32,190 nt of DNA, taken from positions 1 to 32,190 of the IMG/VR virus record IMGVR_UViG_3300024346_000300; one strand, given 5' to 3'. The stretch is from a virus. This document shows positions 3,037-28,093 of this stretch, in pieces. Positions within the stretch are counted from its first letter, which is position 1. Each line of letters starts with the position of its first letter. Under the pieces are notes generated by a model, which was not told where the DNA came from, searched no databases, and saw only the letters and a program-made list of their open reading frames with translations. The translations under genes were made by a program, and so were the position numbers.

Positions 3037-6000
3037 TTACATCCTCCAATATAACTGTTCCATCCTTGGTCTTACCAAGTGAAAATTTGTAAGCATTTCC
3101 TTCTTCAATTCTCATATAGGCTTTTGCAAATGCCGTTGGAAAAACCGTAATAGAATGTAGGTCTCTTGCAGTATCGGCTACTGTTAGGGACGCCATCTTC
3201 TTTCCAGTCTTTGTAATTCTTGGTTTAAAAGAAACTACAAACATTTCATCATCCTTGTATGGTAATTGTTTATATCCCAAAAACTTAATTAACCCAGTCG
3301 TAGATCCTTTTATGGAGTCGACAGGCACAGCAGAAAGAATCCTATTATCATTAGCAAGAATGATATACGATAAGCCTGCTTCAATAGTTGTTTGTTCGTC
3401 ATCAAATATTCCTACGCTTCCTGTTTTATCTAGCACTTCTACTCTTGACCAACCCTTTGATCTCTTAATTGATTTTACCATACCCATCAAAATAAAAGAA
3501 CCTTTTTCTTCATAGTCTTCAATTGGGCTTATAAATGCATGATAGTGAGATGGTACGGTAATATTAAACTCTGGAAGATTTAAATACTCATACAGGTTCT
3601 CTTTAATCTCTTGTTCATTACGTGGGTTATCCGTAAAGGTTGCAGCGCCAGTAATTCTTAATGCTTGAAGGGCACGACTGTTTACTCCGTTTCCTTTTGT
3701 GAAAGTGAACTTTTCAAGTTCTTCATACGAATTGAATGGTCGTGCTGAAATGTATCTCTCACCAATTTTGTCAGATATGAACTTGATAGCACTGAGTCCA
3801 AACCTAATACCCTTACCCTCAATCTTAAAATCGATATCCGAATCGTTAATGTGAGGTAACTTAATACTAATGCCCATTCTCTTTGCTTCAATAAGATATT
3901 CAGTTCTCGCATCTTTGTCCTTTTCATTTTTTAATAATGAGTACATAAACTCTAGTGGATAGTGATACTTTAGCCACGCCGTCCAATACGAGAGCGTAGA
4001 GTAAGCAACCGCATGAGACTTGTTGAACGAATATCCTGCGTGTGCTTCAAAGTCATGCCAAAGATCTTTCGCTTGATTAGGTGAAATGTAAGCAGACGCA
4101 CCAGATACAAACTTATCCTGAAAAACATCGAATTCTTTAGCATCCTTTTTCTTTCCAATGATTTTTCTAACTTTGTCTGCTTCCGACATGGACATACCGC
4201 CAAGCGATACGCATGCTTGCATAACTTGTTCCTGGTAAAGAATACAGCCATATGTGTCCTCCGTAAATTCTTTTAGTACTTGGTGTGTGTAAGATATGTT
4301 TTGACGACCATGCTTACGATCAATATAATCTTTTCCAATTGTGTTCATAGCACCTGGACGAACAAGAGCGTTTGATGCAGCAAGTTCATTAAGGTTCTTT
4401 ACTCCCATTTTTACAAGAAGGTTTGTGTATGGTGATGCTTCACATTGAAACACACCCTTTGTATATCCATCAGAAAGCATTTGATAAACATTTGCGTCAT
4501 CCATAGGAATTTCAAGCGGATCAATTAGTTTTCCATCTCGCTCTTTAATAATTTGAAGTGCATCCTTTAGTACGCTAAGAGTTTTTAAACCCAAAGCATC
4601 AATCTTAATCAAACCAATCTTTTCAGCCTCTTCCATATCAACTGCAACAACAGGAATGCGCTCATCGCTACCAGTAGAAGAGCGTGTCTCCATTGGTGCG
4701 TACCTAAAAATAGGATCTTTACTAGTGACAACGCCAGCAGCGTGAATGCCAGTACCTCTAATACGACCACGAAGTTGTTCCCCATATATCTCCACCTCTG
4801 GATATTTCTCACGAAATTCTCGTGTTGTTTTTGAACTACAGTATTCATCCCAAGTGTCAACCATTTTTAAAACCTTGTTAACATCTGTAAGAGGAATATT
4901 TAATACTCGTGCAACATCTCGTACAACACCCTTGTCTTTAAACGAAAGGAATGTAGCAATAGATGCAACATGTCGATACTGTCTAACTAGATAATCTTTT
5001 ACTTCTTCACGACGAGTATCTTGAATATCTGTATCAATATCAGGAAAGTCATTACGGTCTGGGTTGATAAAACGAAAGAACAGTAGTTTGTGCTTGATGG
5101 GATCAATGTCTGTAATTCTTAGAACATAACAAAGAAGTGAACCTGCTGCAGAACCACGACCTGGACCAACCATGATTCCTTCTTTCTTTGCCCAAACAAT
5201 CATGTTACGAACAACTAGAAAGTATGGACCAAACTTCTTATCCTTGATTACCTTTAACTCTTCATCAAGTCTGTCTAAGTATTCCTGGTTACCCTCAAAC
5301 CCTCTTTCCTTCAAACCTTCAAGAGCAAGTTCTTTTAATTCTTTATCTGGGTTCTTGTATTGTACTGGTAGTAAGTCTAGTCCTTCTTGGATTCCATAGT
5401 CCCCGACTTTTTCTGCAATCTTCAAAGTGTTAGAATATATATCTGGTCTATCAATGCCTTGTGCTTCCATGGCTGACTTCATCTCTTCATAAGAAAGAAG
5501 GTGAATATCAAACTTATTAAATGTGATCTGTCTGTCTTCTCCATACAAATAATCTAAGCGCTTCATCATGTCTGGTTGCTTCTTTGACTTTTCAAACGTA
5601 TGCTCTTTGTCAATCTTGACATGTGTATTTAAAAGAAGTTTAAACTCTTGAATCTCTTTTTGATCTGTTGAACTATGGTGGCAGTCTGGTGTTACAACAA
5701 CCTCTACTCCAAATTCATCTGCCAAAGCAATTAGTTGTTTGTTTATTTCTTCAGGGTTATGTGGCATTACCTCAATGTAGTAATCATCATTGAATACTCG
5801 CTTAAACCATTCAATATGCTTTTTTGCAATTGCGAACTCGTTGTTCTCTAGTGCTTTTACAAGCACACTACTTGGGCATGCCGATGTTACAATAATTCCT
5901 TCTGAATACTTTTCAAGAATCTCAAAGTCAAATCTTGGCTTCTTAAAGAATCCTTCTGTCCATGCAATCTCATTAATCTTATTTAAATTCTCTAAACCAA

Positions 6001-17475: not shown

Positions 17476-18131
17476 TACGCCTCTTCCAGTGTCAGAGAGA
17501 CATCCCAAAAGTCAAAGTTCAAACCACTTCTTTTTGTAACAGAGTAATTAAAATCTCCAAAGAATACTTCAACGATCTCACTATACTTGTTTATATTTTT
17601 AAATCTTTCGTCTTCAGGAGTATCTGGATTATCTTCAAAGTTTGTGTACTTGTCATAGGAAAGATATACCCAGAAGGATCCGTTGTGTCTTTCATACCAG
17701 TCTAGTAGTTCAACTCCTCCTGCTCCACCATCTGTAGTAAACTCATACGGATTAGGTCTTGCTACCGTTTTTAAAAGATCAGCATTTCCATTAATATCAA
17801 AATCTGCCAATGTGTCATGGGACCTTGAGGGTAGCGTATTCCAAGAAGTAGATATCTGTAGTTTGTCGGCAATATGATATGACCTCATACGGCCATTAAT
17901 CATTCTTTCACGCTTCTCAATTCTAATGGGCTTAAAGTCTATTGCTGATCTATTATCATCAGAGAGTATTAAAAACTCCCCAGAACTGCCTTCGGAGGGC
18001 GCATAGGCCCCAATCTCAGTTCCTTCTGGTATGTAGAAGCCATTGATTTTCTGCCCTGGATTATCAGCAAACAACATTGCTTGTGGTCTAGAATATTTCT
18101 TTCTACCAGACATGTAGTTATTAGTTGCCAT
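17475..18131 (-). CDS. Distal tail protein
   Basis: The 218-residue product is encoded directly after the tape measure and before the hub, the standard position of Dit-type proteins in siphoviruses. Residues about 1-40 are basic, the middle is beta-rich and hydrophilic, and the C-terminal 60 residues carry aromatic strands (IVEVFFGDFNYSV, NFDFWDVSLTLEE) like the N-terminal ring-forming domain of distal tail proteins. It begins in a TAATG overlap with the tape measure stop. It would cap the tail tube and hold the hub. The family call rests on position and strand pattern, with no characteristic short motif. Confidence 0.6.
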   Translation of the reverse strand: MATNNYMSGRKKYSRPQAMLFADNPGQKINGFYIPEGTEIGAYAPSEGSSGEFLILSDDNRSAIDFKPIRIEKRERMINGRMRSYHIADKLQISTSWNTLPSRSHDTLADFDINGNADLLKTVARPNPYEFTTDGGAGGVELLDWYERHNGSFWVYLSYDKYTNFEDNPDTPEDERFKNINKYSEIVEVFFGDFNYSVTKRSGLNFDFWDVSLTLEEA

Positions 18132-21100
18132 TATATTCTAGTCCCCCTCAATCTTTGTGAGTCAACATTTCTTACTTGAGCCATTACTGATCTAGCAATT
18201 TCATCTGGGTTTGCATCAGACTTAACATTAACACTAATACTATAATTATACACTGAGTCACCAACAGAGTTGCCATTGTTGATTGCTTTCATGGCACTAG
18301 TTCCATGTGTTTGAACAGCATACTTACTCATTACAAATTCTCCAGGAGTTAACATTGCTGGTACTGAGTCTGTGCCTATAACATTTCCACCAACTGCAAA
18401 ATACCTAGGCTTAATTAGTCCACCCTTTGCTGCATACTGATGATCCATTCCTCCACTACTACCACCAGACATGTTTGGGTCAAGTGTAGGAAGTGTTGCG
18501 TCATAGGCTGCTTGTGCTGCAGCAAGTCTTGCCTGCAATCTGTCATAAGCAGCATCTGATCCATGTCCTCCGCTTGTTCCTGCCTCTACCGCTGCAAGGG
18601 CTGCATCAAGTTCTTCAACTATGTCTATAAATTCTTCAAATGCTGCAATAGATTCTGGAGTGTCTGCTGGTGCTACATAGGCATTTGCTCCAACCCCACC
18701 AATTGCATTTACTGCACCCTGAACTGATCCAGGAACACCATTTGCATATTGTGCCAATAGTGCAAGAATATTTGACCAAGTTAATTCTAGTTCTTGTGCT
18801 GCAGATAATAAACCAGCCAATGCAGCAGACCCGTTTGCTGCTTTAAGTGCTGCTGCTTGAGCGTCAAGTTGTGCATTAATTCTAGCCCATTCGTCTCTTG
18901 TTTTACCAAGGACTGTAAGAGAATCTATTTGCTTGTCAATACTATCTTGCAAAATTCTATTTTCATAGTTAAGTAAATCAATTCTCTCTTGTAGGGGTTC
19001 AATAGAGTTTTCCTCTATCTTCCATATTTGATCTTCAAGGTCTCTAATTTTAAGAAGTGCTGCTTCTCTTAACTCCTCTAGGTTATAGATTGCATCTTGC
19101 TTTATTTGAATCTGGTTTAATATTTCAAGTCTTCTTGGATCTGTCTCCATTTGATAAATCTTTTGTGCATTTTGATATTGCTTTTCAGTTATCTGTTCTT
19201 GAGTTAGTCCGCTTTGTGGACCAACAAGACTTCCTAGAGCATTCTTTCTTGCTTGCTCTAGCGCATCAGACTGTCCAGAAGCAAACTGTGCAGCACTTGT
19301 TTGTCTCATTCCCTGTGCTGCTTGCGCTGCTGCTGAAATATCTCCTTGTGTCAGTGCATCTGCAAGCCCAAGTTGCTGCTTCTGCTGCTCCATGATGTTT
19401 GCATTAATCTCTTGTACCTTTGATAAAGCCTCTGCTTGCTCGTCATATTTCTTATTTACTTCTTCGGCAGCATGGGCGATGACTGTTAGGTCATTAGAAA
19501 GCATATTGTTTTCATCTTGTATTTTCTTAATAGCACGATCACCAAAGAATGGATTCATTTCTAATTCACGGTTTAGATCATTAACATCTTCTTGCAATTT
19601 TTCAATAGGTCGTGAATAGTTTTCTTCGATTGCCCTTTGTGCATCTTCTATCTGATCATTTATTAATTCAATTTCTCTGCGGAATGGAGCAATCTGAGAC
19701 TCCAGATCTCTAATCTGTCTTTCATTAGCCTTAAGTTTCATTGCTTCAGGACCTGTACGAATAAGTCCTTCCTGTGCTGCAAACAATTCATCAACAATCT
19801 GTCGTCCTTCTGCTCCAGCCTTTGCCAAGTCACCTTTGTTAAGTGCAACTTGTATATCAATAATCTTTCTTGCCTCAATTGAATTTAGATAATCTGCAAT
19901 TTCTTTTGCATCCATCTTTCCATCTTTTAAGTCTTCAACAAGGAACTTGGCAAGTTCTGGATTACCTAAAACTGTATCTATCTGATCGATACTATAACCC
20001 ATCTCCTTTAACTGTTTGCTTAACTCTGGCATCTTTGAATAATCAGAGAATTCTTGATTTGCCTTTATTGCATCATTTAACACCTTCTGGCGCTCTAAGG
20101 CATCATTAGCACCATTAATATTCTTGATATATGTCTTCCACTCTGGGTCAGTTGTTTTTATTGCTCCACCAGCGATTGCTGCTGCTTGACCTGCGTCAGC
20201 AACAACCTCAAGTGCCCTTGCTGCACTTACGCCATTTGCAATCAACATATTATATGCCGTTGCTTGATCAGTTACTGTTTTAATAGTTTCTTCTTGAACT
20301 AGGTTATAGTCTCCTAGGTTTCTTTCTTTGTACCCTTGGTCTGCTGCTTTTCCAAGTGGGGCAAGACCACTTATAGTGTCCTTTGATCTTGGCTTGTTTT
20401 TTTCAAAAGTAAATAGAGCATCCTTACCCTTTAGTGCTGCTACCTTGGCAAAATCTTCTGCAGACATAGATGCAACTGCATCTCTAAGATCTTTTCCTAC
20501 TCCCATACGAAGAAGTCTGTTTTGAATGCCATCGAACAACTTGAATGCACTCTTTTGTGTTTTCTTGTCTGTAAATGCTGCAAGAAGTGAATCTATTGGC
20601 TTTAGTGCATTGAAAGCATTATCTCTTACTTGCTTTAGCCTCATTGCTAATTCATCAAGGAATGAAAGCGGATTATCTCCCTTGCCTTTTCCACCATCAT
20701 ATTTACCGCCTGCTGCTGCTGTTATCTTTTCCTGCCACTTGATATAATCTTCAGCCTGCTTGCCAGCGATCTTACTTGCTTGCCCTTCTGTTCCGAGTGC
20801 ATTAAATGAATCCATTTCTGATTTGTATATGTATTCATAAAGGTATGTTTGTTGTCCACCCTGAGATCCAGCATTAGCCTTGTCTCTTGCATACTGCTGA
20901 GCCCACATCATTCTTGATTCTTTATCTAAGAACAGACTAGAGTATATAGATGTATAAAGTTGAAGCGCTTGCTTTTTAATATTGTCTGGAAGTTTTTCAA
21001 AATCTTTATAGTTTGCAGTAAATGAGGCTAGGTCTCCAATGTTGGCATTATCCAATTCAAGAATTGCCTCTTTAGTTATTGGTGTTTTAATTGCATCAAT

Positions 21101-24100
21101 CTCTGCAAGGCTCTTGGATAGTCTATCGAGTCCTCCAGATCCCATCTTTGAAAGAGCAACGTCCATGTTAATTTCAACACCATCAAGTTTTGTTAGCATG
21201 TCTAGTGCTTTTAATGTTTTGTCATACTCTGCTGGATTTTTTCTAACAATGTTAGCAATAAATGTTTTTGCAGTTTTCTTTTCTACACTACCAAACATAT
21301 TCATTAGCGCAGCGGTCTTTGCTGCTCCCTGAGTTCTTACTCCTATGTTTAGGTTTGTTTGAAGGGTCTGCAAGTCTCCATCGAATAGGTCAAGCATTGT
21401 CTTTGATTGTTGTGGGCTTAGTAGTCCATTAGCCATCATTAGGTTCATTTGAACCTCTAACTTTTGTGCTTCTGCTGCAGAGGTAAATCCTTGTTTTCCA
21501 TACTGCCTATTGTCGCTTATCTTTGCAAGTCTAGACATTGTATTTTTTGCCATAGACTCTTGCTCTGTTCCCTTATATTTATCTGTTACCTGTGCCTTTA
21601 GAGAATCAAAGTATGCATTTTCTCTGAGATCTTTTGATGTTGATAAGAGTACTCCTGCTGAAAATTCTCCTGCAGACTGAACACTTTCAAAATCTTTGAG
21701 TGCCTTTTGCAAGTACCTATCTGTTTGAATATTCATTCGTCTTTCATCTGTTCCAGATTTTTCCTTTAAGGCAGCAATCTTAGTTTCTATTTCTAGTTGC
21801 TTTTCTTTATTTGTAGTTGATAGCAACTCTTTTTCTAAAATTCTTGTTTGATCATCATACATCTTTGCAACAGCATCCGCCTGGGCCTGGGCAAGTTCGA
21901 CTGTTTTAACAGATATAGCAGCAAGTTGTGCAGACTCTGCCCTTCCGCTATTACCTTCTGAAACAGATTTATTCATTGCTCTCATTGCTTCTTCAGCACC
22001 TAGTGCATATTGAGCAACAATGTTTAATCTTCCTTGAATTGGATCGCTAAATATATCTTTACCATCTGGTCCAACCAAAGTTCTTAGGTTTCCTTCAATG
22101 TTTGCAGTAAGAGTCATGTCTCCAAGTTTTGTTCCAATACTCTGTGCAATACTGTTTGCTTGCTCTGCATCTAATATTCCATCAGAAATATATGCTGCTA
22201 ATTCTAAAGACAATTGTTGTGCTGCTTTTTTACTTCCAACCTTCATTACATTGTCTGTAAGAGATTTCTGCATACCCTTTCCAACTTCGGATGCCAAGAA
22301 TGTTTCTCCAAATGGCTGTCCTTTTCTTTCTCTAGGTCTTGTGTATTGATCAAACATTGCCCCAGATCTGCGCTTAGACATTATTTCTGATGCGCCAACC
22401 TTGCCAGTTACTTCACCAACCTTTTTCATTTTTTCTGTTGATGCAGATATGGAACTAATATATTTTGATTGTGCTTCTGCTGCAGACTTAAGTTGCTTGT
22501 CTAATAAATAAACGCTTGCTCCAAGTGCAGCGATACCTGTAATTGTCCAACCTACTGGACCCATTCCTGCAAGTGCTGGGGCCATCGATGCAACCATCGA
22601 ACCTGCTCCAAGTGCTCCAGTTACTGCTGCTGGGGCACCTGCCATGCCAGCAACCATTGATGCAGTTCCTAGCGCTCCTGCTGCTTTTCCAGAATACCTT
22701 CCAACTTTTTCTCTTCTAACTCCACGATTATATTTTGTTACTAATTTTTTTGCTTGTCTTGGTGGTAGTGGGTTTCCTTCTGCATCTGAAACTAGTTTGC
22801 CATCTGGATAAAAGGTTGGTGCATAGGAATCTACAACTGAACCACCAGACAAACTATCTGACTGAACTTCTTGTTTAACGCCATCAGTGGCTGCGCTTCC
22901 TGTCTTTGCACCCTCTGCCCTTACCGCTGCTTGTGACTCTTTCATTCCTTGGATTACTCCTTCAGAAACTTCTCTGCCAGCAGCCTTTCCTTTTCGTGAT
23001 GGAGACTTTGCATCTGTACCTCTCCTGCTTCTAAGTCCATCAACAACAGCAGCGCCTGTTTCTTGTCCAGCCCTAGTTGCACTTGATGTACCAAAAGCGG
23101 TACCTCTAGTTCTTTTCTCAGCATTTAATATTTTTCTATTTCCAGTACTTCCTTTTGTTACCTTGGGAACTGGTAGGCCATTGTCAGTTGCGTACTGTGC
23201 AACCATTTGTGCTTCTGCATCTGTCATTGAAACTCTAATTGCAGTAAGCATGTTATCTGCACTTTCCATAATTGCTCTTATGGTTCCTGTTGCTTGTGAT
23301 CTTGACTCTTGTTCTATTCCTGCAAAAACTTCATCATTAAATAATCCGTCTGGATTTGCTGCTTTCCATGCCTGAACCTTTGCTAAAACCTGGGCATCGT
23401 ACTGTTGAAACTCTGCCTGCACCTTGTCAAATGTTATTCCAAGCCCATCAGTTGTTGCTTTCCATTTTTCAACACCAACCTTTTCCCAATCTTTTGTAAA
23501 AGCATCTATAACTGGTCCATTGTTAGTTACAAAGTTTGCCTGACCAGATTTTGTTCCTTCTGCCATAACCCTATTTATATTTCCAGTCATGTTTACTGCT
23601 GCTCCGCCCATGACTCTTGCGGTTGGAGATTGCATTCCATTTGCAGCATAGGCAGCATTGACAGTTTTTAACTCTTCTAATACATCTGGTCTGGTTATAT
23701 TTGTTCGTGATTGTACTTGAGAAAGTGGCATATTCTGAGACATACCTAGGTGTGAGTATTGAGAATTTTCTTGTTGATATCTTGCAGTAAGTCCACTATC
23801 TTTAAGTAATGGCTTCAGTGCTTCGTCTCTTAATTTTTGAAAGGATGCCTTTGTGTGTGCGTTTAGTTCGTCTAAAGACTGTGTTGCATTTGTTACCAAT
23901 TCTTTATATCTTTGCTCAATCTGAGAAGTGTCAATTCCCCTATCGGTTGCTCTCTTTAAAACCTTTGCAAGGTCTTGAGTTAATGATGCTTCAATTGATG
24001 CTGGGTTAGTTCCTGCAGAAGCAGTTCGTGCTGCAATTTGTGATGCCCAGTTGCCTTCAATACCAGTTCCATTTCCGTACTTCTTTATGTTGCCATTCAT

Positions 24101-26272
24101 TAAAGCAGCAACAAGTTCTGGATTAGCCTTTACTGTATCTTTTGTAAGAACAACTTCTCCTGGTGTAAGCATTGATGGAACAGAGTCTTGATTTCCAGTA
24201 CCTGGAACTACTCCACCTCGTGCAAACTTCTTTGGAAGTTTTGATGTTGCCCCCTTAGCCCCTGGTGCTGCGTTAAACAATCCTGGAGAAGATGCTGCTA
24301 ATGCTCTTGCTTGAGAAGCAGCATTTGCATACGCAGTTGCTAGTGCATTTATAGATCCTACTTCAACATTAAATGTTTGAATCAGTTGTTGGTGTGAAGT
24401 ATGGAGTGCGTTGGACTGTGCAAGGTTTTCAATTTCTTGCTGTGTCAAATAATCAAACCCTCCACCAAGCACAGCATTTTGTCCATTTAGTTTTGCCATG
24501 CCCCCACGCAGTAGTGCAAAGAACTTAATTAAGTTTGCAAGACCGTTAGCAAGTAGACCAAATGTCATAAGTGCAATAGGTGCAAGACCTCCAACAACTC
24601 CAATAACAATTGCAATTGCTTTTTTTGTTCCATCACTAAAGTTACTAAATTTTTCTAAAATCTTTCCAAAGAATGCAACGACTGGAGTTAATGCTTCAAG
24701 GAATGCCTTACCTACTGGAATAAGTTGAACCTTAAGTTGTTCAATTGTTTTTTGAAACTTAACTCCTACTGCATCCTCTACCTTTCCAAGTTCTCGCTCA
24801 GATAAGATTGCTAACTCTTCAACTGATGCACCAGCAAGACCCAATGCTCTTGATGCCTGTGATGTATCTTTTGTTACGTTTTGAAATAATGTTGATAGAC
24901 GGGCAAACTGGAACTTACCAAATAGTTGTTCAATTGCTCTTGCTCTGTTTAATGGATCAAGTGTATCTAGCGCTTGAGCACAACCTACAACAGTTCCTTT
25001 TAGGTTTCCAGAGTTTGCTTCAACAATTCCTTTAATATTTATACCAAGTTCACCAAGGAATTTGCTTGCTTTTGTTGATGGATTAATTAAAGATGCTAGG
25101 CCAGACTTTAATGCGTTGGCGCCTTCTGATGCATTGATTCCACCTTCTTTCATTGCAGTCATAAAGAATGCAAGATCTTCTACAGATCCACCAAGTTGTT
25201 TTACAACTGGTCCAGCCTTTGGAACGGCTATTGTTAAATCTTCAATAGAAAGAACAGTTTGGTTTTCTACTGCGTTGAGGAAGTTAATCTTTTGTGCAAG
25301 TTGATCTGCAGAAATACCAAATGCATTTTGTAAAGAAATCGTAGTTTCAAGTGCTTGTTGTTGTTCGACCTGACCAAGAACTGAGAGTCTAGTTGCTGCT
25401 GTTACCTGTGCATTAAGATCTGACCCAGTAAGACCCATTGCTGCAGCCTTTGCTGCCATAGCCACTGTGTCTTTGACTGCAATCCCATACTTTGTAAACT
25501 CAACACCTAGTCGTTGAATGTCTGCAATTGCTTTATCGGTTGCTCCAGCATCTGAAAACATATCTCCATAAACACGTTTAAAGTTAACAACTTCTTTTTC
25601 CATTTCTCTAAATGTTTGAGCAGCAAATCCACCAAGCATTGAGAGTGGAACTGTTAAACCAACCATCAACTGACGACCAGCCCACTGTGTATTCTTACCA
25701 AAATTTAGAAGTTGTGTAGAGCCTTGCTTAAGAAGTTGATTCATTAACTGCTGTCTTTGAGCAGCCATCTGTACTCTTGTTGCATAGTCTGTGTACTTAC
25801 CATTAACTGCATCTAAGTGTTTTGGAACTACCTGCAAAACCTTTACAAGGTCACCCTGTGAATTAGTTAATTGGATATACTGTGTTTGAAGTGCCTTGAC
25901 TCTATCTTTTCTGGCACGGTTAATAATGTCTCGCTCTGCCGTAAAGGCTCGTCCCAATATTTTAGTGTTTGCTGTTGCTGCTGCGCCTGTGTACCTGAAG
26001 TACTCACGCATGCTGAGTTTGTTCTTTTCAAGTGCATTAGTAAAAGAGTTTGTACTATTTAAAACATTCTTTTGTGAGGCAACAAACTTGCCTGTTGAAT
26101 TGATTGCCTGAACTAACTGAGCATTTAAACCTTTTTGTGCGTTGGCGGCATTTACATTTCCTGCAGTTAGCGACTGATTAAACTTGCTTAATCCAGCCTG
26201 TAGTTGACGTAAACTGGCAAGAGCATCTTTAGTATCAAAGACTATGCCAATATTGGCGTTTACATCAGACAA
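18131..26272 (-). CDS. Tail tape measure protein (2713 residues)
   Basis: The start is TTG 26272, with AGAGGGTG about 8 nt upstream. Residues about 225-420 match a TP901-type tape measure core (FKRVYGDMF, AAMGLTG, ATRLSVLG, NASEGANALKSGL). Two hydrophobic stretches (about 555-590 and 1195-1257) could cross a membrane or interact in DNA ejection. Coiled-coil segments lie near 2185-2290 and 2380-2467. Two copies of a GG-x-V-x-GT-x-DSVP-x-MLTPGE motif occur, near residues 690 and 2630. Tape measures set tail length at roughly 0.15 nm per residue, which would predict a tail of about 400 nm. No lysozyme or peptidase motif was recognised. It is by far the longest gene in the window. Confidence 0.95.
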   Translation of the reverse strand: MSDVNANIGIVFDTKDALASLRQLQAGLSKFNQSLTAGNVNAANAQKGLNAQLVQAINSTGKFVASQKNVLNSTNSFTNALEKNKLSMREYFRYTGAAATANTKILGRAFTAERDIINRARKDRVKALQTQYIQLTNSQGDLVKVLQVVPKHLDAVNGKYTDYATRVQMAAQRQQLMNQLLKQGSTQLLNFGKNTQWAGRQLMVGLTVPLSMLGGFAAQTFREMEKEVVNFKRVYGDMFSDAGATDKAIADIQRLGVEFTKYGIAVKDTVAMAAKAAAMGLTGSDLNAQVTAATRLSVLGQVEQQQALETTISLQNAFGISADQLAQKINFLNAVENQTVLSIEDLTIAVPKAGPVVKQLGGSVEDLAFFMTAMKEGGINASEGANALKSGLASLINPSTKASKFLGELGINIKGIVEANSGNLKGTVVGCAQALDTLDPLNRARAIEQLFGKFQFARLSTLFQNVTKDTSQASRALGLAGASVEELAILSERELGKVEDAVGVKFQKTIEQLKVQLIPVGKAFLEALTPVVAFFGKILEKFSNFSDGTKKAIAIVIGVVGGLAPIALMTFGLLANGLANLIKFFALLRGGMAKLNGQNAVLGGGFDYLTQQEIENLAQSNALHTSHQQLIQTFNVEVGSINALATAYANAASQARALAASSPGLFNAAPGAKGATSKLPKKFARGGVVPGTGNQDSVPSMLTPGEVVLTKDTVKANPELVAALMNGNIKKYGNGTGIEGNWASQIAARTASAGTNPASIEASLTQDLAKVLKRATDRGIDTSQIEQRYKELVTNATQSLDELNAHTKASFQKLRDEALKPLLKDSGLTARYQQENSQYSHLGMSQNMPLSQVQSRTNITRPDVLEELKTVNAAYAANGMQSPTARVMGGAAVNMTGNINRVMAEGTKSGQANFVTNNGPVIDAFTKDWEKVGVEKWKATTDGLGITFDKVQAEFQQYDAQVLAKVQAWKAANPDGLFNDEVFAGIEQESRSQATGTIRAIMESADNMLTAIRVSMTDAEAQMVAQYATDNGLPVPKVTKGSTGNRKILNAEKRTRGTAFGTSSATRAGQETGAAVVDGLRSRRGTDAKSPSRKGKAAGREVSEGVIQGMKESQAAVRAEGAKTGSAATDGVKQEVQSDSLSGGSVVDSYAPTFYPDGKLVSDAEGNPLPPRQAKKLVTKYNRGVRREKVGRYSGKAAGALGTASMVAGMAGAPAAVTGALGAGSMVASMAPALAGMGPVGWTITGIAALGASVYLLDKQLKSAAEAQSKYISSISASTEKMKKVGEVTGKVGASEIMSKRRSGAMFDQYTRPRERKGQPFGETFLASEVGKGMQKSLTDNVMKVGSKKAAQQLSLELAAYISDGILDAEQANSIAQSIGTKLGDMTLTANIEGNLRTLVGPDGKDIFSDPIQGRLNIVAQYALGAEEAMRAMNKSVSEGNSGRAESAQLAAISVKTVELAQAQADAVAKMYDDQTRILEKELLSTTNKEKQLEIETKIAALKEKSGTDERRMNIQTDRYLQKALKDFESVQSAGEFSAGVLLSTSKDLRENAYFDSLKAQVTDKYKGTEQESMAKNTMSRLAKISDNRQYGKQGFTSAAEAQKLEVQMNLMMANGLLSPQQSKTMLDLFDGDLQTLQTNLNIGVRTQGAAKTAALMNMFGSVEKKTAKTFIANIVRKNPAEYDKTLKALDMLTKLDGVEINMDVALSKMGSGGLDRLSKSLAEIDAIKTPITKEAILELDNANIGDLASFTANYKDFEKLPDNIKKQALQLYTSIYSSLFLDKESRMMWAQQYARDKANAGSQGGQQTYLYEYIYKSEMDSFNALGTEGQASKIAGKQAEDYIKWQEKITAAAGGKYDGGKGKGDNPLSFLDELAMRLKQVRDNAFNALKPIDSLLAAFTDKKTQKSAFKLFDGIQNRLLRMGVGKDLRDAVASMSAEDFAKVAALKGKDALFTFEKNKPRSKDTISGLAPLGKAADQGYKERNLGDYNLVQEETIKTVTDQATAYNMLIANGVSAARALEVVADAGQAAAIAGGAIKTTDPEWKTYIKNINGANDALERQKVLNDAIKANQEFSDYSKMPELSKQLKEMGYSIDQIDTVLGNPELAKFLVEDLKDGKMDAKEIADYLNSIEARKIIDIQVALNKGDLAKAGAEGRQIVDELFAAQEGLIRTGPEAMKLKANERQIRDLESQIAPFRREIELINDQIEDAQRAIEENYSRPIEKLQEDVNDLNRELEMNPFFGDRAIKKIQDENNMLSNDLTVIAHAAEEVNKKYDEQAEALSKVQEINANIMEQQKQQLGLADALTQGDISAAAQAAQGMRQTSAAQFASGQSDALEQARKNALGSLVGPQSGLTQEQITEKQYQNAQKIYQMETDPRRLEILNQIQIKQDAIYNLEELREAALLKIRDLEDQIWKIEENSIEPLQERIDLLNYENRILQDSIDKQIDSLTVLGKTRDEWARINAQLDAQAAALKAANGSAALAGLLSAAQELELTWSNILALLAQYANGVPGSVQGAVNAIGGVGANAYVAPADTPESIAAFEEFIDIVEELDAALAAVEAGTSGGHGSDAAYDRLQARLAAAQAAYDATLPTLDPNMSGGSSGGMDHQYAAKGGLIKPRYFAVGGNVIGTDSVPAMLTPGEFVMSKYAVQTHGTSAMKAINNGNSVGDSVYNYSISVNVKSDANPDEIARSVMAQVRNVDSQRLRGTRI

Positions 26273-26286
26273 TCATTACACCCTCT

Positions 26287-26622
26287 TTACTTTGAAATTT
26301 GACCTATCAGTGCCGTGGCATCCGATAGTTGAATTCCTGATGCAGCATCAACGATTTTGTAAACAGTTGGTAGATCCAAACTATCTTCAATCTTTTCTTT
26401 GTCATCAGCGAGTTCTGGGTAGTACTGTTGGAAAGCAATCTGAACACACTCAATTAGCACATCCATTGACTTTTCATTATCGTCCGCTACCTCTGCAAGG
26501 CCCTGGAAAGTTTTCATGAAGGGCTTTAGTAGTGAGATCTTTAGCGGTTTAACTTCAAAGGTTGTTCCATCAATAAGGGACAACTTTTCTGTCTTGTCGT
26601 TCTTTGCATTAGCGTTAGCCAT
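26287..26622 (-). CDS. Tail assembly chaperone, short paralogue
   Basis: Start ATG 26622 (MANANAK) has GGAGG 7 nt upstream; an ATG at 26634 overlaps that ribosome site. The 111-residue protein has a charged N-terminus, then a strand-helix region (LSLIDGTTFEVKPLKI) and a helical C-terminal half ending LPTVYKIVDAASGIQL. It is similar along its length to the first half of the 226-residue gene upstream: LIDG-x(3)-E-x-x-PLKI and Y-[KR]-[IL]-[VL]-D-x-A-[SA]-GI are shared. Small proteins at this position, just before the tape measure, act as chaperones for its assembly. I found no frameshift signal at its 3' end. Confidence 0.75.
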   Translation of the reverse strand: MANANAKNDKTEKLSLIDGTTFEVKPLKISLLKPFMKTFQGLAEVADDNEKSMDVLIECVQIAFQQYYPELADDKEKIEDSLDLPTVYKIVDAASGIQLSDATALIGQISK

Positions 26623-26650
26623 TATTTCCTCCATAGGTTGTTAACACTTA

Positions 26651-26656
26651 ATTATA
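26651..26656 (-). promoter_or_regulatory. -10 box TATAAT for the short chaperone and tape measure
   Basis: GGTATAAT lies in the 53-nt gap between the two chaperone genes; a start site about 7 nt downstream leaves a leader of about 20 nt that contains the GGAGG ribosome site. No -35 is visible, and the long chaperone stop is about 20 nt upstream. Confidence 0.5.
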
Positions 26657-26675
26657 CCATAGCAGGTCTTTATTT

Positions 26676-27356
26676 TTACTCTATTTTCTCGTAAGAAAGA
26701 CCCATCCCAATTCCAAATCCAGCCTTTTGTGCATTTATTCCCTGAAGGCCAACGATGTCTCTTCCATTTGCAGCAGCCCCACCACTAAAAACCCTGGCCT
26801 TCATATCTTCCCAAGCATTGCTCTTGTTTCCCTTATCTAAATCTACACCTTGCATTGCTGCCAAAAACTTTTTGTTATTATAATCTTCTTCTCTTTTAAT
26901 GTTTAGGATTGATGTTATCTCTGGCATAGATAGTGACTTTTCTAATTCTTCATAGTCTTTCCAGATCCCCAGCAAAAATACCTCAGACTCTAGTTTGGCA
27001 AGATCAAGGTTTTCCCAAGTGTCTCCACTTTTCTCTGCTTGCTCTTTAACAGGTTCTTCCGAGTCCTGGTTAATCTTAATCCCTGCTGCAAGATCAAGTA
27101 GTCTGTAGATTTCATTTAAGTTTATATGGTTTTCAAACTCTTCTATAGATGCTGCAATCTCTGGCTTGTACTGTTTCATACAGTGCATTGCACAAACTGC
27201 TAATGCGCTAATTGCCTCATAGTCATCCTTTGATGCCCTAACATTTTCAAACTCATCCATAAGTCTTCTAAGATATTTAATCTTAAGTGGAGATATCTCT
27301 AACTCTTCACCATCTATTAAATTAATGTATCCCAGTTTGTATATTTCTGTTGCCAT
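26676..27356 (-). CDS. Tail assembly chaperone, long paralogue
   Basis: I take ATG 27356 (MATEIYK), 6 nt after a TATACT box; an ATG-like codon further upstream lies before that box. The 226-residue protein has an N-terminal half homologous to the short chaperone (residues about 10-105) and an additional C-terminal half (about 110-226) rich in Asp, Glu, Lys and Gly (LDLAKLESEVFLLGIWKDY, GIGMGLS). The layout equals lambda gpG versus gpGT, but here both forms are separate genes and the long one is read without frameshift. Role: chaperoning of the tape measure during tail assembly. Its position between the major tail protein and tape measure supports this. Confidence 0.8.
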   Translation of the reverse strand: MATEIYKLGYINLIDGEELEISPLKIKYLRRLMDEFENVRASKDDYEAISALAVCAMHCMKQYKPEIAASIEEFENHINLNEIYRLLDLAAGIKINQDSEEPVKEQAEKSGDTWENLDLAKLESEVFLLGIWKDYEELEKSLSMPEITSILNIKREEDYNNKKFLAAMQGVDLDKGNKSNAWEDMKARVFSGGAAANGRDIVGLQGINAQKAGFGIGMGLSYEKIE

Positions 27357-27362
27357 CTTATA

Positions 27363-27368
27363 AGTATA
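27363..27368 (-). promoter_or_regulatory. -10 box TATACT placed for leaderless start at 27356
   Basis: TATACT ends 6 nt before the chaperone ATG, so transcription would begin at or near the A of ATG; no Shine-Dalgarno sequence is present. It follows the major tail terminator (27371..27404) within 3 nt, so it restarts transcription after that stop. Confidence 0.55.
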
Positions 27369-27370
27369 CC

Positions 27371-27404
27371 AAACAGAAAGGCCCAACCCCGAAGGATTGA
27401 GCCT
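27371..27404 (-). terminator. Rho-independent terminator with UUCG tetraloop
   Basis: On the minus-strand RNA an 11-bp stem (27379-27404) closes a C(UUCG)G tetraloop; AGGCTCAATCC pairs with GGGTTGGGCCT with two G-U wobbles. It is followed by UUCUGUUU. It lies 19 nt after the major tail stop and should end most transcripts of that abundant protein. Stem, loop and U-rich tail agree well, so this is a strong call. Confidence 0.88.
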
Positions 27405-27422
27405 CTCATGTATTAAGTTGTA

Positions 27423-28040
27423 TTACGCTGGTGTGTAAGTACGATCTACGATCTTTCCGTATGATGCGTTATCATTTGGAAGAAGGCGGAAAGATACTTC
27501 AAACATCGTCGCTTCGTCGCGCTTTGCTGCTACTGTAACATTTTCAATTGAAAGTGCACGGTATGCAACATAGACACGCTCAACATTTATTGAAGCGTCT
27601 CCAGTTCCTGGACCAACTGCCACTAAACCACGCTCAACTGGGACATCTCCGATGTCTCCTGCTGAAAGATTAAGTGTTGGGTTGGATGAAACTGTTGCTA
27701 GATCTCCATCTTGTCCTGCTAGTGCGAACAAAAGATTTTCTAGTGTTGATTCTGCGAATGTAGTATTTAGGTTTACCTGCATGCCTTGCTTAAATAACTT
27801 AGCAACGTCAAGTACCTGGTCTACTGCTACTTCGCCGAAATCTGGCTGGAATTGAATTTCCAAACCATTCATTGTGTAACCAACATTACGGAAGTCTGCG
27901 TCATCTGCAAGGGTATCCTTGTATGAGTCGCCTGCTACGTATGCTGGCATGTCTGCGTCTGCAAGTGCGCCATCTTCGTATGTGAAGAGTGCTGCTGCTC
28001 CAACGATAATATCGTTTGAACTACCACGTGTATATGCCAT
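27423..28040 (-). CDS. Major tail protein
   Basis: Start ATG 28040 (MAYTRGS) follows GAGGTG about 6 nt upstream; the ATG at 28049 would overlap that ribosome site. The 205-residue protein is the first tail gene and is followed by a strong terminator, as expected for an abundant tube subunit. Features: an N-terminal arm (SNDIIVGAAALFTYEDG), a beta-rich body (MNGLEIQFQPDFGEVAVDQVLDV) and a C-terminal RLLPN strand. The layout of an arm, a tube domain and no extra Ig domain fits siphovirus tail-tube proteins. Its own promoter lies about 55 nt upstream. The call is from position, size and expression signals as well as sequence pattern. Confidence 0.75.
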   Translation of the reverse strand: MAYTRGSSNDIIVGAAALFTYEDGALADADMPAYVAGDSYKDTLADDADFRNVGYTMNGLEIQFQPDFGEVAVDQVLDVAKLFKQGMQVNLNTTFAESTLENLLFALAGQDGDLATVSSNPTLNLSAGDIGDVPVERGLVAVGPGTGDASINVERVYVAYRALSIENVTVAAKRDEATMFEVSFRLLPNDNASYGKIVDRTYTPA

Positions 28041-28093
28041 ATATTTCACCTCTTTTTTCTTTATAGATTAAAGGGCTTGTTTCCTCAAGGTTA

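Follow-up and report, generated by a model that had tools for sequence, protein, structure and literature searches.

The window, meaning the whole 32,190-nt stretch of viral DNA analysed here, carries two paralogous genes, a long one (GT) and a short one (G2), between the genes for the major tail protein and the tape measure protein. The pair very likely forms a system of tail assembly chaperones whose two isoforms come from two paralogous genes, at a ratio probably set through transcription and initiation. With considerably less assurance, we lean towards a more specific reading, in which this clade left programmed frameshifting by one duplication and the ratio now comes from a leaderless, minor GT and a Shine-Dalgarno-led, major G2 on nested transcripts.

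The gene order on the minus strand was major tail protein, GT, G2, and tape measure protein. The pair therefore sits in the usual place of tail assembly chaperone genes, and the long form precedes the short one, as the first-pass annotation had reported. The ATG of the short gene was preceded by GGAGGAA. The locus contains the following parts.

27423..28049, minus strand: major tail protein gene, the upstream neighbour, assigned by PHROG Ig-domain and major-tail families and by orthologs annotated as major tail protein in Stanwilliamsviridae
27376..27407, minus strand: intrinsic-terminator-like hairpin with a 14-pair stem, in the gap that separates the major tail protein gene from the long gene
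27363..27371, minus strand: extended -10 box TGGTATACT, separated from the long-gene ATG by 6 nt; predicted leaderless promoter
26676..27356, minus strand: putative long tail assembly chaperone (GT, TAC-NC type), 226 aa, ATG start; G domain at about 1-97, a linker, and T domain at about 113-226; phrog_10504 at 1-100 and phrog_10474 at 131-189; aligns with the -1-frame T of relatives
26651..26659, minus strand: short-gene extended -10 box TGGTATAAT, separated from the ATG of that gene by 28 nt
26628..26633 (approximate), minus strand: Shine-Dalgarno sequence GGAGGA of the short gene
26287..26622, minus strand: putative short tail assembly chaperone (G2, TAC-N type), 111 aa; phrog_10504 at E 3.8e-20; 34% identical to the G domain of the long form
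18131..26272, minus strand: tape measure protein gene, 2713 aa, starting 14 nt past the short gene; N-terminal part homologous to the annotated tape measure genes of relatives

The first-pass annotation had described the long gene as the short gene plus an extra C-terminal half, and both comparisons of the proteins bore this out. BLASTP aligned residues 14-100 of the short form with residues 11-96 of the long form at 34% identity over 87 aa (E 4e-18), and profile-profile comparison gave 99.8% probability (E 2.4e-27); the homology spans the entire core of the short gene. The motifs listed in that annotation, LIDG, PLKI, and YRLLDLAAGI / YKIVDAASGI, are all present. It had also named different folds as an outcome that would speak against its reading; the AlphaFold2 models agree in the order of elements, each with a beta-hairpin first and then a matching series of helices, and model confidence is low for the T domain of GT past residue 170. 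Judged by these sequence comparisons, the long and short genes are true paralogs, whose isoforms have a common N-terminal domain as in the lambda gpG/gpGT type.

Both proteins matched phrog_10504; phrog_10474 was matched only by GT, in its C-terminal half. PHROGs lists both families as being of unknown function, and they contain the G and T parts, respectively, of annotated Stanwilliamsviridae tail assembly chaperones. Likely functional names are therefore G for phrog_10504 and T for phrog_10474. Homology of both proteins to annotated tail assembly chaperones was also found by searching the phage collection. In Pfam and NCBIfam, nothing scored above cut-off. The BFVD matches to the GT model included tail assembly chaperones of Kitkat and 6ec and the GT of N15. 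Among solved chaperones, the top match was HK97 2ob9, a weak one (Foldseek E 1.6, VIA Z 4.5) that was tied with unrelated entries and was not counted as proof of the fold.

The closest isolated phages, identified by searching the phage collection with both proteins (tblastn), were Streptomyces phages of Stanwilliamsviridae, and at E 0.01 the matches lay only in Streptomyces and Rhodococcus phages. Since the isolated relatives infect these genera, the host is likely an actinobacterium; no relatives were found in bacterial genome contigs or plasmids. Stanwilliamsviridae have a single G gene with T in the -1 frame, and frameshift joins are annotated in Patelgo and in the Rhodococcus phages NiceHouse and Francesca. 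A second, sister metagenomic clade, for which the patterns used retrieved 432 relatives from IMG/VR, showed G and then a -1-frame T in the loci fetched.

The arrangement of G followed by a -1-frame T was found in 108 loci of relatives. An in-frame X_XXY_YYZ heptamer was present in 89 of these (79 CCCAAAC, 8 CCCAAAT, and 2 GGGAAAA), and the non-canonical CCCGGAA occupied the heptamer position in 19, all from Boydwoodruffvirinae and close relatives. These loci (L166, L223-L238, L243, and L245) have GACCCGGAA where relatives have GACCCAAAY, and we regard GACCCGGAA, from its conservation, as a non-canonical candidate slippery site. When read through the slip, the product of the relatives (..GIKLNDPN-SSSGGSGSTWEELDLASLEAEVF) runs colinearly with the window's in-frame gene (..GIKINQDSEEPVKEQAEKSGDTWENLDLAKLESEVF); it enters T at the matching point of GT, and both contain the block SGSTWEELDLA.

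The patterns used retrieved 410 IMG/VR stretches encoding relatives of the long gene and 81 encoding relatives of the short gene. Among the fetched IMG/VR loci of the clade, fused GT was followed by G in 215 of the 215 complete loci. The search for similar pairs that the first-pass annotation had proposed thus found the two-gene form common to the whole clade. Loci with one gene only (n = 7: L004, L021, L028, L046, L084, L162, and L195) were all cut by a contig end or a chimeric join, the contig of L046 being chimeric shortly past the G2 start (3740-4100). Evolutionary intermediates, either GT without G2 or G2 without GT, were accordingly discarded as candidates. Both genes are under purifying selection, with median dN/dS of 0.07 for GT and 0.09 for G2. 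The spacing between GT and G2 was about 28-58 nt except in L096, where approximately 1.2 kb with additional open frames separates them. This insert has its own -10-like box, and one of its open frames resembles, by eye, a 2-oxoglutarate oxygenase. G2 keeps its own promoter in L096, which shows that GT and G2 are separable units.

GT of the window is a single open frame, with no T in another frame. No T domain followed the stop of the short gene in the other two frames, one of which is broken by stops and the other of which, past its stops, is the tape measure gene itself. The first-pass annotation had seen no in-frame slippery heptamer at the end of the short gene, and this holds, the AAATTTC at nt 322 being out of frame. 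In a programmed frameshift, T is reached through a slippery site that is conserved. The heptamers that occur in GT and G2 across 39 loci of the clade are scattered, none of them conserved in place, and were rejected as functional sites.

It is very improbable that programmed frameshifting persists in this clade, either inside GT, where it would yield the short form, or where G2 ends. In-frame heptamers do occur scattered in GT, such as GGGAAAC at codon 175 in the window, and nine lie at codons 100-109 across the 39 loci. However, none is conserved in position over these loci, whereas the relatives conserve theirs, and no T domain lies behind G2 in any frame. The in-frame fusion might also be an assembly or sequencing error, since the record is a metagenomic contig; this hardly deserves credence, because the identical arrangement is found in 215 loci with dN/dS near 0.08, and its recurrence in many contigs already refutes it.

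In the G-domain tree, G1, G2, and the frameshift-type G each formed one side of a branch (support 100/98), and three separate groups fit a single old duplication. Pairwise scores placing G2 closer to the Streptomyces G were not used for polarity, and the G-domain tree itself supports only the three separate groups. The polarity of the change was taken from a rooted species tree of the major tail protein, T, and the tape measure N-terminus (21 rows, quick search, SH-aLRT support), with its root placed on the Rhodococcus phages. In this tree the Streptomyces phages branch off first and the frameshift metagenomic clade next, both outside the GT clade. It makes frameshifting ancestral, and one change from frameshift to two genes suffices. 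The first-pass annotation had proposed that separate paralogous genes stand in for gpG and gpGT, and this can be upheld: the relatives keep the frameshift, and one duplication divides the two states.

The start regions were compared across 39 non-redundant loci of the GT-G2 clade. In 37 of 39 loci, an extended -10 box (TGnTAnAnT) lay 3-9 nt upstream of the GT start, nearly always at 6 nt, and only one of the 39 had a Shine-Dalgarno sequence of at least 4 bases. The start position of GT is safe, as MATxxY opens GT and likewise the G of relatives. Leaderless genes are frequent in Actinobacteria, and a gene with a TA-like signal some 10 bp upstream of its start is most probably of this type (PMC3160421). 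By the sequence criterion of that study, which asks for a -10 box roughly 10 nt upstream of the start codon and no Shine-Dalgarno sequence, GT would count as leaderless. With the -10 box 6 nt from the ATG, transcription should begin at the start codon, and the GT mRNA is therefore probably leaderless.

The start region of G2 was of another type. All 39 loci had an extended -10 box 24-36 nt upstream of the G2 start (1.5 expected from shuffles), and all 39 had a Shine-Dalgarno sequence of at least 4 bases. Of 61 G genes from the frameshift clades, 60 had a Shine-Dalgarno sequence and none had a leaderless-type box. This G2-like arrangement indicates that G2 kept the ancestral start region and that GT has a new one. 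A terminator-like hairpin stood before GT in 31 of 39 loci, compared with 0.05 in shuffles, and none was found between GT and G2 in the 39 loci; GT transcripts would thus also carry G2. A generic sigma-70 scan missed both promoters, and neither has a good -35 box. The separate promoters suggested in the first-pass annotation are supported by the strong conservation of the two extended -10 boxes. That annotation had overlooked the contrast between the leaderless-looking start of the long gene and the Shine-Dalgarno leader of the short one.

These observations can be arranged into the following scheme. An ancestral G gene with a -1-frame T would have been duplicated once. The upstream copy may then have become GT, now one gene in one frame, and the copy downstream would have kept G together with its promoter, leader, and Shine-Dalgarno sequence and lost T; we infer this order of duplication, fusion, and T loss. 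In the present locus, the terminator after the major tail protein gene would be followed by a GT promoter whose transcripts start at the ATG, leaderless and with no Shine-Dalgarno sequence. A second promoter and a strong Shine-Dalgarno sequence would drive G2, which would also be carried on the GT transcripts in a nested arrangement. By analogy with lambda, the short form may coat the tape measure protein, and a few long forms may recruit the major tail protein through T, which is also the basis for the presumed function of the pair in tail assembly. Promoters and unlike initiation would replace frameshifting in setting the short:long ratio. That the promoters and the mode of initiation set this ratio is likely, and the dose of GT would presumably lie below that of G2, although leaderless genes in actinobacteria need not be weakly translated.

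Two other accounts of the pair deserve consideration. The ratio of the paralogous chaperones might be set mainly by other means, such as read-through from the major tail promoter or the stability of mRNA or protein, with the -10 box of GT being weak or auxiliary and not the source of a leaderless mRNA. Terminators leak, and 8 of the 39 loci had no hairpin by the criteria used. We nevertheless consider this account unlikely, because the box lies 6 nt from the GT start in nearly all loci while the adjoining sequence varies, and read-through transcripts would be left without a Shine-Dalgarno sequence for GT. The short gene might instead have drifted to another job, for example as a tape-measure-specific chaperone or a regulator, with GT alone serving tail assembly. 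The identity of just 34% between G1 and G2, which form two separate clades, is in keeping with such drift. It is more doubtful still, however, since G2 retains the ancestral type of leader, its place, purifying selection, and a G-like model, and is present in every complete locus. A pair of isoforms from two genes, with the ratio governed by promoters and initiation, remains the preferred reading.

The pair resembles lambda gpG/gpGT in having short and long forms with an N-terminal domain in common and in lying directly ahead of the gene for the tape measure. The lambda tape measure protein is coated by G, a few GT bring in the major tail protein, and slippage sets the ratio; both forms are made from one start through a frameshift at approximately 30:1 (PMC5009743), whereas the window has separate genes. 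G-T frameshifting is widely conserved in long-tailed phages, with the exception of T4 (PMC5009743). The Stanwilliamsviridae (Streptomyces phages such as Patelgo, Beuffert, and JimJam) and the Trinavirus-type Rhodococcus phages have homologous G and T domains (phrog_10504 and phrog_10474) in a like gene position. They have one G with a -1 frameshift to T at CCCAAAT or, probably, CCCGGAA and no second G, whereas the window has two genes; their G has a leader and a Shine-Dalgarno sequence, and the GT of the window is predicted to have neither.

In some T4-like phages, the short form and the long fusion each have a gene, with no frameshift (Vladimirov, Gautam and Davidson 2022, as described in PMC10885494), a precedent that the first-pass annotation had missed. 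By that description, the two-gene design itself is already known from T4-like phages, and the window pair likewise consists of a separate short gene and a long fusion gene. These phages are myophages, a lineage far from the window clade, so the two designs probably arose independently. New here are the two-gene design in a Stanwilliamsviridae-related lineage, a transition that can be rooted against sister clades that frameshift, and the pairing of a predicted leaderless with a leadered gene; no prior report of this variant was found in the open-access literature.

As an example of conserved recoding, the G/GT frameshift has entered the textbooks. Both states are found here in sister clades on a rooted tree, which amounts to a natural experiment with a simple evolutionary logic: duplicate, fuse, and drop T. 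It allows one to ask whether frameshifting serves to hold the ratio constant, to give both forms the same N-terminus, or only to keep the genes compact. With 34% identity between the two N-terminal domains, the shared part apparently need not be the same in both forms.

Three further observations concern other parts of the window. The gene at 11052-10609 on the minus strand is a second leaderless candidate: TGGTATAAT at 11070-11062 stands roughly 9 nt upstream of its ATG, and it lacks a Shine-Dalgarno sequence. At 31281-31227 on the minus strand, the capsid gene is succeeded by a terminator-like hairpin of 15 pairs, and then come TGATATAAT and a Shine-Dalgarno-led gene (31208-30750); this terminator-promoter design is the same as that at the chaperones. 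Furthermore, a 1091-aa open frame at 6301-3026 on the minus strand resembles, from its translation by eye, the alpha subunit of a DnaE-type DNA polymerase III.
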